A stretch of 61,969 nucleotides of DNA. It comes from Hyphomonas pacifica. GTDB taxonomy: Bacteria; Pseudomonadota; Alphaproteobacteria; Caulobacterales; Hyphomonadaceae. The notes beneath the pieces are model-generated. The model was not told where the DNA came from, ran no database searches, and saw only the letters and a list, made by a program, of their open reading frames with translations. The position numbers and the translations under genes are program-made. The DNA lies in NCBI RefSeq assembly GCF_000682675.1, contig NZ_AWFA01000013.1, forward strand, positions 1-61,969, read 5' to 3'. Positions 25,121 to 49,339 of the stretch are shown one piece after another; within the stretch, counting starts at the first letter, position 1, and each line of letters starts with the position of its first letter.

Positions 25121-25597
25121 TTACAGGCCGTAGCCGGTTTTAGCCTTGACCGTCAGGTCCACACGGCGCGCCATCGGCATGGCCATTGTGTCAGACAGGC
25201 GTGTTTCGGAGACCGGCACGAAATCTGTGCGGATGTCCTGCGGGCGGATGCCGCGTGCGGTGAGGGCGTCCAGAACCACGGCGGCGCGGTCCTCAGACAG
25301 GCGGGCCGTTGGGCCGGTACTATCGGCATCTGCGGAAACGATGGTCGCCTGGATATCAGAAATGGTGCAGCCCGCCAGCTGGTCGCCCGCAGTATTCAAC
25401 GCGCGCATGGAATAGGAAGACAGCGAAGCATCCTTATTGGAGAAGTAGACGGTGATCTGCATGTCCTCACAATTCTTTTCATAAGGGACTTTCACCGGTT
25501 CCATCGGCGGCGCCTTGGGGGCGTCCGACATTGCGGGAAAGGCCAGTGCAATCGCGCCGATGCTCAGACCGGCTATAAACTGTGCGCGTTTCATCAT
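25121..25597 (-). CDS. Periplasmic OmpA-like domain protein
   Basis: A 158-residue exported protein. The signal peptide is MMKRAQFIAGLSIGAIALAFPAMSDA with cleavage expected after the Ala-rich region. The rest resembles a diverged OmpA C-terminal domain: ITVYFSNKDASLSSYSMRALNTAG for the first strand-helix, and RAAVVLDALTARGIRPQDIRTDFVPVSETR followed by MARRVDLTVKAKTGYG, as in NRRVEI of OmpA proteins. The usual peptidoglycan-contacting Asp/Arg are not obvious. AAGGAAGA precedes the start; ATG at 25597 or 25594. It has its own terminator downstream. Confidence 0.72.
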   Translation of the reverse strand: MMKRAQFIAGLSIGAIALAFPAMSDAPKAPPMEPVKVPYEKNCEDMQITVYFSNKDASLSSYSMRALNTAGDQLAGCTISDIQATIVSADADSTGPTARLSEDRAAVVLDALTARGIRPQDIRTDFVPVSETRLSDTMAMPMARRVDLTVKAKTGYGL

Positions 25598-44847: not shown

Positions 44848-44922
44848 TCAAGGATCAGGTCTTGCCACTTGGGAAGTGATCCCCCATCTCGCTTGGATCA
44901 GGGAAAGAAAGGGACCCCCGAC

Positions 44923-45735
44923 ATGCCAGAGAACCCGGATATCGGCGCCCCCGCGCCTGCCTGGAGCCGTCTGCGTTTCGAGGCCCGTGCCGCTGCAGCA
45001 GATGAACCGACCCTGTCGAGCTATCTGAACTCTGCGATTCTGGCGCATTCCACGCTGTGCCAGGCGCTGTCTTTCCATCTGGCGGAAAAGCTGGGCAGCC
45101 CGGTGATGAGCACCCAGCAGATCCGGCATGTCCTGTCCGAAGCCTATAATGCAGACCGCACACTGGTAGAGGCCGCCGAGGCCGACATGCAGGCGGTGCT
45201 TGAACGAGACCCGGCCTGCCGCGGCATGTTGCAGCCTTTCCTGTTCTTCAAGGGCTTCCTGGCGCTGCAGACCTATCGCGTCGCGCATCAGCTCTGGGGT
45301 GAGGGTCGCGAGACACTGGCCTTCTACTTCCAGAGCCGCGCTTCGGAACTGTTCGGCGTAGACGCCCACCCCGCCGCCCGCATCGGCAAGTCTGTCATGC
45401 TGGACCATGCCTCTGGCATCACGATCGGCGAGACGGCGGTGGTGGGCGATGGCTGCTCTCTGCTGCACGGCGTCACGCTGGGCGGCACCGGCAAGGAAGT
45501 CGGCGACCGTCACCCGAAAATCGGCAAGGGCGTGCTGCTCTCTGTAGGCGCAAAAGTGCTGGGCAACATCACGATTGGCGATGAGGCGAAGGTGGCCGCA
45601 GGCAGCGTGGTGCTGAAAGACGTGCCTGCGCATTGCACTGTGGCAGGCGTTCCAGCGAAGATTGTCAGCGGGCCATCCTGCTGCCATCCGGCTGAAACAA
45701 TGGATCAGACGATTCCCGACGAAGCGTCTAAATAA
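44923..45735 (+). CDS. cysE: Serine O-acetyltransferase
   Basis: A 270-residue left-handed beta-helix enzyme that acetylates L-serine with acetyl-CoA, the first committed step of cysteine synthesis. The helical N-terminal domain (SRLRFEARAAAADEPTLSSYLNSAILAHSTL) precedes hexapeptide repeats with the catalytic His in MLDHASGITIGETAVVG and in LLHGVTLGGTG. KDVPAHCTVAGVPAKIV ends the repeats. I chose the ATG at 44923, with an AAAGGGA site upstream. Its C-terminal end (AETMDQTIPDEASK) is short; feedback inhibition by cysteine normally depends on that tail. Confidence 0.94.
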   Translation: MPENPDIGAPAPAWSRLRFEARAAAADEPTLSSYLNSAILAHSTLCQALSFHLAEKLGSPVMSTQQIRHVLSEAYNADRTLVEAAEADMQAVLERDPACRGMLQPFLFFKGFLALQTYRVAHQLWGEGRETLAFYFQSRASELFGVDAHPAARIGKSVMLDHASGITIGETAVVGDGCSLLHGVTLGGTGKEVGDRHPKIGKGVLLSVGAKVLGNITIGDEAKVAAGSVVLKDVPAHCTVAGVPAKIVSGPSCCHPAETMDQTIPDEASK

Positions 45736-45941: not shown

Positions 45942-47087
45942 GTGAGCTATGAGGAGGAAAACGAAGGCCGTCTGCGCCGCACGCGTAAAGTGCGCCGCAT
46001 GCAGGCAGAGCGTTTGCCCTTCATGCCTTATGCCGCCGGTCCCATTATTGCCTTGGGACTGCTTGTTCTTTTTGCAGTCTGGCCATTTGCCTCCGGCGTG
46101 ATTGAGCGGTCGGCAGAGCGCGCGGCTATTGAGGCGCTTGCTGGAGCAGGTGCTGGCTGGGCCCGCCCGCGCGTTTCCGGGCAATGGATCACTCTGGAAG
46201 GCACGCCGCCCTCTGAAGAGGCCGCCGAGTCTGCCCTGCAGGCGGTTCGACAGGCCAAGGCCCGCACTTTGCTGGGGCCGGCCCGCCCTGTCACCCGTGT
46301 GAGGGACCGGTTTACGCGTAATGAGGCGGTCGAGACGCCAAAAGACATGCCCAATGGCTGGTCTTTCCGCCTGGCCGACGGTGTGCTGACGCTGGACGGT
46401 GACATGCCGGACAATGATGTGCGCGACGAGGTGCTGAAAGCCGCCCGCGCCGAGATCGCCCCGCCGCGCCTGATCAGCATCCGTGATAGCCTGACCATTA
46501 CGAATGAGCCGCTGCCGGAGGGCTACACCTCTGTTGCCCTGCGCGGCATTGATACCGTTACGCGCTGTGATCGCGGTGTGGCGAGCTTTAGCTCCAACCG
46601 CTTCTCCATTAGCTGTGAGCTGCCAGGTGCAGATGCCGCGGGCGTACGCGAGATTGCACTGGCCCCCATCGCCCTGGGAGAGATCGGCGCGGTGGACATC
46701 ATGGCGCGTGAAGCCGTGGCGAGTTGCGAATCCTCTCTTTCGGAATTGCTGTCTGGCGCTCAGATCAAGTTCAATTCCTCCAGCGCGGCGATTGATGCCT
46801 CCAGCTCTGACTTGCTGGATGAGGTGACGGAGGCAGTGCGCGCCTGCCCCGGTAATCTACGAATTGAGGGGCATACGGACAGTACCGGTCTCGACGAGAC
46901 CAATCGCCGACTTAGCCAGGCGCGGGCAGAAGCCGTGCGCAATGCCCTCATCGCGCGCGGTGTTCCGGCAACACGCCTTGTCGCGGCGGGCTATGGCGCC
47001 ACTCGTCCCATCGGATCCAATCAGACGGCTGATGGCCGCGCCCAGAACCGACGCATAGAAATACGGGTGATCCGTGTTTCAGAATGA
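45942..47087 (+). CDS. Inner-membrane BON + OmpA peptidoglycan-binding protein
   Basis: A 381-residue protein starting at GTG. A 28-residue, Arg-rich cytoplasmic segment is followed by one membrane helix (about residues 30-50, AAGPIIALGLLVLFAVWPFA). The periplasmic part has a BON-like region (about 60-190: VSGQWITLEGTPPSEEAAESAL and ADGVLTLDGDMPDND) and a C-terminal OmpA domain (about 260-381) with IEGHTDSTGLDETNRRLSQARAEAVRNAL and NRRIEIRV, which bind peptidoglycan diaminopimelate. Thus it ties the inner membrane to the cell wall. The coiled-coil gene follows after 30 bases in the same direction. Confidence 0.87.
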   Translation: MSYEEENEGRLRRTRKVRRMQAERLPFMPYAAGPIIALGLLVLFAVWPFASGVIERSAERAAIEALAGAGAGWARPRVSGQWITLEGTPPSEEAAESALQAVRQAKARTLLGPARPVTRVRDRFTRNEAVETPKDMPNGWSFRLADGVLTLDGDMPDNDVRDEVLKAARAEIAPPRLISIRDSLTITNEPLPEGYTSVALRGIDTVTRCDRGVASFSSNRFSISCELPGADAAGVREIALAPIALGEIGAVDIMAREAVASCESSLSELLSGAQIKFNSSSAAIDASSSDLLDEVTEAVRACPGNLRIEGHTDSTGLDETNRRLSQARAEAVRNALIARGVPATRLVAAGYGATRPIGSNQTADGRAQNRRIEIRVIRVSE

Positions 47088-47117
47088 TTTCCTCCTGAGA
47101 CTCTGAAAGTAACGACC

Positions 47118-48962
47118 ATGTGGTATCTCATTATCCAGATCCTCGTACTCATGATCTTCGCGGCCGTTGCGGGCGCAGCGCTGGCCTATTGGTGGATGAG
47201 AAACCGCTATGAAGATGTCACGGAAAGCTATGAGGACATGCTGGAGCGGTCCACGCATGATGCGCTGCCGCCCCCTGCGACGCGAGCGGATTTGCAGGCC
47301 TTTGTTTCGGGTCTGGAAGCGCGGCTCGAGTCTCGTCTGGAGGCGCTGCCAGCCCTGGTCACGCGGGAGGAGCTGGACACTGGCCTTCGCGGTATTGGTG
47401 CCCAGATTGCTTCGATCCCGCAGCCTGAAAAGCCGGAACAGCCGGATCTTACCCCCATCACCACGCATCTCGAAACCGTCTCGCATCGTCTGGAAGGTAT
47501 CACCGGAAATGTGGAAGGCATGCGTGCCCATCTCACGGCAGAGGGTGAGGAAAGCGCCTTCACTCCGCTGATGGACCGCCTGTCACAGATTGAGGCCGCT
47601 GTTGGCGAACTGAAGAATACAGAATTGAACTCAGTCGAAGGCCATCTCGAAAGTCTGGACGCCCGCATCTCCCGCATTGAGGATGGCGTGAACCTGCTGA
47701 TGAGTGTGGAGCTGCCCAAGCCGCCGGAGATTCCGGAAGTGGACCTCGGCCCAGTGCACAGCGCGCTGGCCAGCATCCAGCTTGCCATTGAAAGCATCGA
47801 CGTGCCGATCACGGATTTGGACCCCATCCGGCAGGATTTCGGCCAGATGGAATCTCGCCTGGCGGAGTTTGCCGAAGGTCTCGATGCGCAGCGCAAGGCA
47901 GACAATGAAAGCATGACCATCCGTCTACAGACATTGTCCTCCTCTCTAGCCTCTCTCCGCGTGCCAGATGTGGATGGCCTGCGCGAACGTCTCTCCAAAC
48001 TGGAGAACGTCATCACCGCTCTGTCGGAACAGAAGTCGGACCTCGGCCCGATCACTGAAACATTGCGCGAAATCGACAAGCAGATGCGCAACCCCTCTGA
48101 TGACATGCGCAAAATGTCTACGCGCCTCGCGGACCTGGAAGGCGGCACGGCGGCGGTTCACGCAAAGCTGGTGCTGCTGGAGAATACCGTGTCCGGAATG
48201 CGGCCAGAGCCGGTGGACCTGTCTCCCGTACAAATCCGCATCGCGCATCTGGAAACGGCAATTTCCTCCTTGCGGGGCGAGCTGCAATCCCTGCCGGATG
48301 TCACGCCGCTAGAGCGCCGCATAGCAGGCCTTCAGGAATCTGTCCTCTCCCTGCGAGAGCCGGACCTGTCGGGCCTGACAAATTCCCTGCGCAAGATGGA
48401 AGCGCGGATGAATCTCGGCGCGGTGGAAGACCGGCTGAATGCCATCGAATATGCGCTGTCATCGCTGACGCATTTCGTGCGTACACGGCCAGACCCGGTC
48501 GACTACTCTTTCCGCACGCCCGCCGCGATGCCGGTCTATGACGAACAGTCCGGGCCCACCTTCACATTGCCAGAGAAGAAGACCCCGGCCTCACCGCCGT
48601 CTCCGCCACCGCCACCCCCTCCGGCGAAGCCGCCTGCGCCTGAAGTCACCACAGGCGATCCGGTCGAGGCCGCCATGCGCCCGGATGACAAGGCAAACCT
48701 TCTGGTCGAAGCCGCCTTCGGGGAGGGTGACGATCTGGAGCTGATCAATGGCGTCGGCCCGATGCTGTGCGAGCTGCTGAACGATATCGGCGTCTACTAT
48801 TTCTGGCAGGTCGCCGAATGGGGCGAAGACGAAATTGAATGGGTCGATGGCAAGCTGGAGCACTTCAAGGGCCGCATTGAGCGCGATGACTGGGTCGGCC
48901 AGGCCAGGCTGCTGGCCCAGCGCCCGGACGTCGCCAAACGCCCGCGTCCCCACGCAGAGTGA
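47118..48962 (+). CDS. Membrane-anchored coiled-coil repeat protein with C-terminal helix-hairpin-helix-like region
   Basis: A 614-residue protein. One N-terminal membrane helix (residues about 3-25) followed by basic RNR suggests a cytoplasmic body. Residues about 105-450 are coiled-coil with at least eight units starting D-[LV]-x-[PG]-[LIV] (PDLTPI at 109, VDLGPV at 208, TDLDPI at 232, PDVDGL at 283, SDLGPI at 307, VDLSPV at 366, PDVTPL at 393, PDLSGL at 415) each running into a helical L..IE..I pattern. A Pro-rich linker (490-510) leads to ELINGVGPMLCELLNDIGVYYFWQVAEWGEDEIEWVDGKL, which looks like the helix-hairpin-helix of the flap-endonuclease-like domain. No family name recognised. Confidence 0.85.
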   Translation: MWYLIIQILVLMIFAAVAGAALAYWWMRNRYEDVTESYEDMLERSTHDALPPPATRADLQAFVSGLEARLESRLEALPALVTREELDTGLRGIGAQIASIPQPEKPEQPDLTPITTHLETVSHRLEGITGNVEGMRAHLTAEGEESAFTPLMDRLSQIEAAVGELKNTELNSVEGHLESLDARISRIEDGVNLLMSVELPKPPEIPEVDLGPVHSALASIQLAIESIDVPITDLDPIRQDFGQMESRLAEFAEGLDAQRKADNESMTIRLQTLSSSLASLRVPDVDGLRERLSKLENVITALSEQKSDLGPITETLREIDKQMRNPSDDMRKMSTRLADLEGGTAAVHAKLVLLENTVSGMRPEPVDLSPVQIRIAHLETAISSLRGELQSLPDVTPLERRIAGLQESVLSLREPDLSGLTNSLRKMEARMNLGAVEDRLNAIEYALSSLTHFVRTRPDPVDYSFRTPAAMPVYDEQSGPTFTLPEKKTPASPPSPPPPPPPAKPPAPEVTTGDPVEAAMRPDDKANLLVEAAFGEGDDLELINGVGPMLCELLNDIGVYYFWQVAEWGEDEIEWVDGKLEHFKGRIERDDWVGQARLLAQRPDVAKRPRPHAE

Positions 48963-49129: not shown

Positions 49130-49339
49130 ATGGAGCGCGAAGAAACGTTGCGTCTTGAGGCGTACCTGAAAGAAAAACTGCATCCGGGCCTGCGCCTGGT
49201 ACCCCGCGACAAGACAGACGATTCCGTTGAGTGCTATCTCGGCGCTGAATTTCTGGCCGTTGTCTACAAGGATGTTGATGAGGGCGAGACCTCTTACCAG
49301 TTCCAGATGACGGTTCTGCAAGAAGACATCAAAGGCTAA
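49130..49339 (+). CDS. DUF3126 family protein
   Basis: A 69-residue cytosolic protein (LRLEAYLKEKLHPGLRLVPRDKTDDSVECYLGAEFLAVVYKDVDEGETSYQFQMTVL) matching the small DUF3126 family that is nearly confined to alphaproteobacteria. Function unknown. A strong AAAAGGAG site precedes the ATG. Single gene; its stop is four bases from the convergent end of the next gene. Confidence 0.85.
   Translation: MEREETLRLEAYLKEKLHPGLRLVPRDKTDDSVECYLGAEFLAVVYKDVDEGETSYQFQMTVLQEDIKG

Follow-up and report, generated by a model that had tools for sequence, protein, structure and literature searches.

A conserved gene pair of Hyphomonas pacifica that may form a wall-anchored inner-membrane tether with an acidic helix-hairpin-helix domain in the cytoplasm

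To our knowledge, few bacterial systems make a mechanical connection between the cell wall and the cytoplasm. The window considered here, meaning the whole stretch of DNA analysed (61,969 nucleotides, positions 1 to 61,969 of the forward strand of contig NZ_AWFA01000013.1, assembly GCF_000682675.1, from Hyphomonas pacifica), carries two plus-strand genes separated by a gap of 30 bp. The first encodes an inner-membrane BON-like/OmpA protein (P1), and the second a protein with a transmembrane (TM) helix, a coiled-coil repeat array and a C-terminal helix-hairpin-helix (HhH) domain (P2). The kind to which they belong, that of wall-binding inner-membrane complexes, is known, and for the cytoplasmic docking end no description was found in the literature searched. 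Complexes of the MotB/ZorB type resemble P1 in having an OmpA-type wall anchor and an inner-membrane location, and PADLOC matches the OmpA part of P1 to ZorB; the Zorya partner of ZorB, ZorA, has a long cytoplasmic tail. The MotAB, ExbBD and Zorya stators nevertheless differ from the pair, in that P2 has one predicted TM helix and gave no MotA_ExbB match among 25 of its 32 Pfam matches. A defence system was considered from the PADLOC matches (the OmpA part to ZorB; the coiled coils, weakly, to LmuB, DruC and JetC) and rejected.

For ArfA/OmpATb (Rv0899) we know of no cytoplasmic coiled-coil/HhH partner, and its operon, ompATb, otherwise codes for membrane proteins of other kinds. ArfA/OmpATb (PMC6151718) is like P1 in its membrane anchor and OmpA domain, and its BON units have a likely counterpart in the BON-like units of the structural model of P1. 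A BON+BON+OmpA architecture is on record in the DolP paper as cluster 7, with 161 alphaproteobacterial proteins (PMC7806268, Table 1). Protein-O of the Dinoroseobacter RC-LH1 complex is like P2 in its N-terminal membrane part, flexible linker and homologous C-terminal domain, but it differs in that its membrane part is a two-helix hairpin in the photosystem and its linker is short (PMC12079452). Also unlike P2, none of the five protein-O-like genes examined adjoins an OmpA gene. NuoE, L21, S2 and PhaH (PRK12373, PRK12278, PRK12311 and NF045508) share the C-terminal HhH domain with P2, whereas the copies examined are without a membrane helix; the matches of P2 to these four models are confined to their C-terminal parts and fall below the cut-off of each. 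The titles and abstract openings listed, mostly from outside subscription journals, contained no description of the P1-P2 gene pair, and the four terms searched were absent from the text of a study of how a budding, stalked bacterium controls its cell cycle (PMC7200025).

Our favoured reading, to which we give an even chance, is that P1 and P2 together make a wall-anchored inner-membrane tether that offers an acidic HhH domain for docking on the cytoplasmic side. We infer contact between the two proteins by way of their membrane helices, docking of a protein by the HhH domain and a tethering function for the module. The evidence comes from conservation of the pair, from the opposite topologies of its members and from the nature of the HhH domain.

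Conservation of the neighbourhood had been set beforehand, in the first-pass annotation, as one test of the pair, and it was found at several taxonomic levels. In the genus, both genes occur in 36 genomes (that of H. pacifica included), and in 35 of these they are adjacent, sharing contig and strand with no more than 794 bp between the matches. The exception (G010) has P1 and P2 on different contigs, and in G029 there were matches to shared domains only. In named genomes the scan covered the best 80 loci of 568 confirmed HhH matches, which span Hyphomonas species, a Henriciella bin, Rhodobacterales and others, together with bins titled gammaproteobacterial, Burkholderiales, Myxococcota and Bacteroidetes, the taxon names of bins being those of the record titles. 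Among the 84 HhH open reading frames (ORFs) in these loci, an OmpA ORF lies directly upstream of 40 by profile, and a 41st pair (L134) was found by reading. Outside Rhodobacterales every TM-bearing HhH gene of the set has an OmpA-type gene directly upstream (41/41). Another 27 HhH ORFs have no TM helix, with the reservation that three of them, unpaired (L110, L112 and L141), run off the contig end, where a TM helix could be missed; TM helices were assigned by hydropathy alone throughout. The P2 family is represented in 39 of the 41 paired loci, that of P1 in 35 and the next flanking family in six, and no widely shared third gene was seen in the flanks, taken up to 4 kb on each side. Since no flanking family occurs in more than six of the 41 loci, the two genes behave like a unit complete in itself.

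In the wider class and phylum we examined hand-chosen regions, 20 from 27 class matches and 59 useful ones from about 150 phylum matches (among the matches listed), a set that leaves out six pairs of the same order in other families and one pair from another family of the class (L062). A first count found an OmpA neighbour for 13/23 TM-HhH genes vs 1/66 other HhH genes (Fisher p 1e-8), the latter divided by host into NuoE 0/21, S2 0/13, L21 0/10, RC-O 0/5, S1 0/1, phasin 0/1 and others 1/15. The lone exception among the others is a TM-HhH gene whose ORF had been called from too far upstream, which brings the corrected figures to 14/24 vs 0/65, of which 14/24 is not a random-sample rate because the regions were chosen by hand. 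Tandem pairs are present in 6/24 other genomes searched in the order (L033-L038), the other 18 having been examined in part, and pairs are seen in further families of the class (L062, L077, L224, L234, L239, L247, L248, L251 and L253), including further forms with two or three HhH domains (L210, L221, L227 and L249). Three bins titled Gammaproteobacteria or Woeseiaceae (L260, L262 and L267) have the reversed order, HhH then OmpA, in an additional TM-HhH paralogue; a third gammaproteobacterial TM-HhH paralogue (L261, L263 and L266) has no OmpA gene nearby, and the same holds for L265. Profiles of the N-termini of P1 (A1) and P2 (A6) matched only 6/142 class and 4/398 phylum genomes; as pairs are known elsewhere, these profiles under-report, and the HhH profile was used in their place. 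One of the pairs counted, L060/L076, is spread over two contigs.

P1 (45942..47087, plus strand) is an intact ORF of 381 amino acids (aa) with a GTG start, and the Met-Ser at its start codon position also opens two aligned homologues of the same genus. Its ORF and that of P2 lie at the coordinates given in the first-pass annotation, which had also noticed the membrane helices and the OmpA motif. The OmpA peptidoglycan-binding domain (aa 277-370, 46770..47051) is certain, PF00691 matching with an E value of 7e-22 and 78 bits vs a gathering score of 27.2. D313 and R328, together with C262 and C302 around the domain, are invariant in 50 aligned homologues, and we take the Asp/Arg pair D313/R328 to be the residues that contact diaminopimelate. 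From the same 50-sequence alignment (A8), for which L224, L227, L249, L089, L101 and L102 were left out of 56 sequences, and which does not contain forms of P1 longer than 650 aa or the degenerate copy of L134, an AlphaFold2 model was obtained with a mean predicted local distance difference test (pLDDT) score of 89 and a predicted template-modelling score of 0.62. In this model a long membrane helix (aa 28-68, 46023..46145; hydropathy peak from aa 35) is followed by three beta-beta-alpha-beta units within aa 75-255 and then by the OmpA domain. The three BON-like units lie at aa 75-124 (46164..46313), aa 140-186 (46359..46499, with a sub-threshold BON_like match at 149-175) and aa 195-255 (46524..46706). 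A Foldseek search with the model returned OmpA domains and also Rv0899 (2l26) over 257 columns, the latter not as one rigid match, since the root-mean-square deviation is 13 and the template-modelling score 0.26.

P2 (47118..48962, plus strand) is an intact ORF of 614 aa, recognised by motif and profile matches. Hydropathy, homologue alignment and flank charge indicate an N-terminal membrane helix at aa 1-26 (47118..47195) with the N-terminus outside, followed by a conserved juxtamembrane segment at aa 27-39 (47196..47234). In an alignment of 26 selected homologues (A6), M1, L4 and G19 are invariant and W25, D33 and V34 are at least 90% conserved. Further on there is a repeat array of nine D[LV]x[PG] units (47445..48437), where at least eight had been claimed, with spacings of 99, 24, 51, 24, 31, 28, 27 and 22 aa, mostly 22-31; when residues 31-520 were shuffled 2000 times the motif appeared 0.8 times on average and five times at most. 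The stalk region has a net charge of -30, and a proline-rich linker (aa 471-530, 48528..48707) joins it to the acidic C-terminal HhH domain with its GRIxRDxW motif (aa 531-603, 48708..48926), placed there by profile search, model and charge. P2 also passes the Pfam cut-offs of Baculo_PEP_C and NPV_P10; these matches, and those to other such families, were read as coiled-coil composition and set aside. Length varies from 160 to 860 aa among P2 homologues and the number of D[LV]x[PG] motifs from 1 to 20 in 40 of those from named genomes, so that the stalk is variable while both ends are kept, as expected of a spacer between two functional ends.

The topologies proposed from the start, with P1 facing the periplasm and P2 the cytoplasm, agree with the flank charges. 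P2 is predicted to be N-out/C-in in 57/58 homologues, and P1 to be N-in in 40/41 when the net charge is taken over 32-residue flanks; with 15-residue flanks the result for P1 is indecisive (29/57 N-in).

The HhH-like region suspected near residues 540-600 of P2 was confirmed by profile search at residues 531-603, which match protein-O chains 8yy9_O (E 6e-21) and 9wqv_a (E 1e-19) and carry the signature DDL...GxGP...GRIxR[DE]xW over about 73 aa, as do the C-termini of NuoE, L21, S2, PhaH and protein-O; the model of the domain has a mean pLDDT of 87. HHH_5 was not among 25 of the 32 Pfam matches of P2, and the HHH_5 matches of homologous HhH domains are weak, the phasin copy alone passing the cut-off (27.8 vs 27). 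A relation to flap endonucleases, which the first-pass annotation had suggested checking, was not borne out, as no nuclease family was present among 25 of the 32 Pfam and 25 of the 28 NCBIfam matches of P2. NusA AR2 is an acidic, protein-binding HhH domain, and outside the hosts of the P2-type domain it was the best match of the HhH profile in the PDB (E 6e-4), followed by eL32 and RadA. AR2 is thus related to the P2 domain in sequence, but it differs in that the match spans only profile positions 15-57, without the GRIxRDxWVxQA part, and in that NusA is a soluble transcription factor. The HhH domain of P2 has a net charge of -11, its paralogue in the same genome -5, and OmpA-paired copies a median of -3 (range -11 to +4, n=62). 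Such acidic charge favours a protein over DNA as the partner, and the suggestion of DNA in the first-pass annotation is therefore not upheld; its broader interpretation, that the two proteins couple the wall to something in the cytoplasm, is partly supported. With the HhH model, Foldseek found no match below E 0.001. As an observation apart, the top fold match (weak, E 0.2) was chain BS of the Trypanosoma brucei mitoribosomal large subunit, which is possibly a mitochondrial relic of an alphaproteobacterial tag on a ribosomal protein.

In the favoured reading, P1 would sit in the inner membrane with its periplasmic OmpA domain gripping peptidoglycan, and its BON-like units would serve as a spacer or as a lipid-contacting part. 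P2 would lie beside it in the opposite orientation with the two helices paired, sending a coiled-coil stalk of variable repeat number into the cytoplasm, where the small and mostly acidic HhH domain at its tip would dock a protein or complex. The module might fix this partner to a wall-anchored point, or report the position of the wall to it. Candidate partners are the alpha subunit of RNA polymerase (by analogy with NusA AR2), ribosomes and P2 itself.

Several observations weigh against the tether. Of the BON and OmpA content first ascribed to P1 only the OmpA part stands by Pfam; the BON matches of the window P1 are sub-threshold (PF04972 15.4 vs 27 bits, BON_like 15.2 vs 24.1) and the BON assignment comes from the three units of the model. 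In some lineages (e.g. L247) the N-terminus of P1 might be a cleavable signal peptide and not an anchor, and in L134 the OmpA-like partner is degenerate. In Rhodobacterales all 16 TM-bearing HhH ORFs of the named set (best 80 of 568) are unpaired; judged by the position of the hydrophobic stretch these look like protein-O, with L113 read individually. No OmpA gene lies beside 10/24 TM-HhH genes of the class and phylum regions, nor beside 4/10 in a further set that includes L270 and L273, which repeat loci of the named set, and in many genomes the HhH domain was found without the pair being seen.

The HhH domain is not confined to the pair. Among the matches listed, 96/398 phylum genomes contain it at E 1e-6, this class accounting for 95, and 13/142 genomes from an even sampling of the class contain it at E 1e-5. 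Pfam or NCBIfam confirms as hosts NuoE, L21, S1, S2, phasin, polyhydroxybutyrate (PHB) depolymerases and LivG-like and OppD/F-like ATP-binding cassette (ABC) ATPases; the remaining hosts were assigned by similarity to confirmed hosts or to protein-O. In the genome of the window the domain lies at the ends of a phasin, L21, an S1-like protein and NuoE (L066, L067, L068 and L050), and in other genomes of the class it ends PHB depolymerases, LivG-like ATPases and a fused OppD/F-like ATPase (L204, L230, L220, L231 and L232). The likeness between the termini of protein-O and NuoE has been noted, and the function called obscure, by Wang et al. 2025 (PMC12079452).

This distribution bears on the possibility that the HhH domain is a shared tag, and that P2 recruits HhH-tagged ribosomes, complex I or polyhydroxyalkanoate (PHA) granules by tag-tag contact or through a common receptor, which we regard as unlikely. 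Consistent with it, the genome of the window has six HhH matches (P2, the corresponding protein of a second pair, NuoE, phasin, L21 and S1), at least two are found in 15/19 pair-holding genomes, and the GRIxR and R[DE]xW halves of the motif are kept in NuoE (21/21 and 21/21), S2 (12/13 and 13/13), L21 (8/10 and 9/10), RC-O (5/5 and 5/5) and paired P2 copies (59/62 and 59/62). Against it, the S1 copy has neither half (0/1) and is the sole exception among host classes. Four genomes of family f17, perhaps sphingomonad-like, that are listed as 100% complete (G316, G434, G531 and G554) each show a single HhH match at E 1e-6 among the matches listed, the paired one, 14/17 candidates having been scored for G434, and in four others of f17 (G277, G342, G527 and G570) the lone match listed belongs to a TM protein that has no OmpA gene beside it. 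Similarly, 9/9 HhH copies detected in three gammaproteobacterial bins (G577, G578 and G582) are on TM proteins, while the copies examined in family f144 are soluble. As the single HhH domain detected in some genomes sits in the pair, tag-tag docking is not general, but capture of HhH-tagged machines by P2 is possible in Hyphomonas, where tagged proteins and the pair co-exist.

That the pair is instead an envelope sensor, in which the BON/OmpA part of P1 senses the state of wall or lipid and P2 passes the signal on to a regulator in the cytoplasm, seems to us quite unlikely. In DolP one BON domain can bind anionic phospholipid, although not all BON domains do (PMC7806268), and two single-TM proteins of opposite topology could in principle relay a signal; yet the Pfam and NCBIfam matches listed for P1 and P2 contain no kinase, cyclase, anti-sigma factor or protease beyond coiled-coil and OmpA similarity, and the flanks of the 41 named loci have no regulator gene widely in common. 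It is improbable that co-transcription is all that joins the two genes and that each acts on its own, for although TM-HhH genes without a pair exist, the pairing is kept across families, also in reversed order and amid unrelated flanks. HhH folds often bind DNA, but a chromosome tether, with the HhH domain of P2 binding DNA and the pair tying the nucleoid to the wall, is very improbable despite the G-h-G hairpin, weak profile and fold matches that include RadA/Rad51 N-termini and Y-family polymerases, and a few mildly positive paired homologues (up to +4), given the charges of the domain and stalk reported above and the presence of the same domain on NuoE, L21, S2, a PHB depolymerase and ABC ATPases.

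Some further observations concern the pair and its surroundings. A second, divergent pair lies on another contig of the same genome (L031:1099-4856) and consists of a 484-aa OmpA protein and, after a 4-base overlap, a 768-aa protein with a TM helix, a very acidic linker and an HhH domain; the BON match of this P1 paralogue is above the Pfam cut-off (46.2 vs 27 bits). A motif of the WRN[RK]xLxxR type is common to the cytoplasmic linkers of L031, L033, L034, L037 and L041 and was not seen in the window P2. In L210, L221, L224, L227 and L249 the OmpA-paired protein has two or three tandem HhH domains, and several of these have more than one hydrophobic stretch. In the window the pair is flanked upstream by a serine acetyltransferase-like ORF, assigned by reading (44869-45735, plus strand), and downstream by a 69-aa ORF (49130-49339, plus strand) that is presumably DUF3126-like, and at a distance a 158-aa ORF (25121-25597, minus strand) has a weak OmpA-like match (E 1e-5).

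It is tempting to extend the tether to a wider picture, which we put forward tentatively and think unlikely as a whole, where a common cytoplasmic HhH domain positions large assemblies in alphaproteobacteria and some gammaproteobacteria. The pair would then be its wall-anchored trans-envelope linker, with a reach set by the repeat number, holding a conserved partner at fixed points of the wall as a bacterial counterpart of nuclear-envelope tethers. The pair is small, occurs in several families and is found in genera that have been cultured, Hyphomonas among them. The partner of the P2 HhH domain, once found, would test the role of this domain on ribosomal proteins, complex I, PHA-granule proteins and the photosystem.

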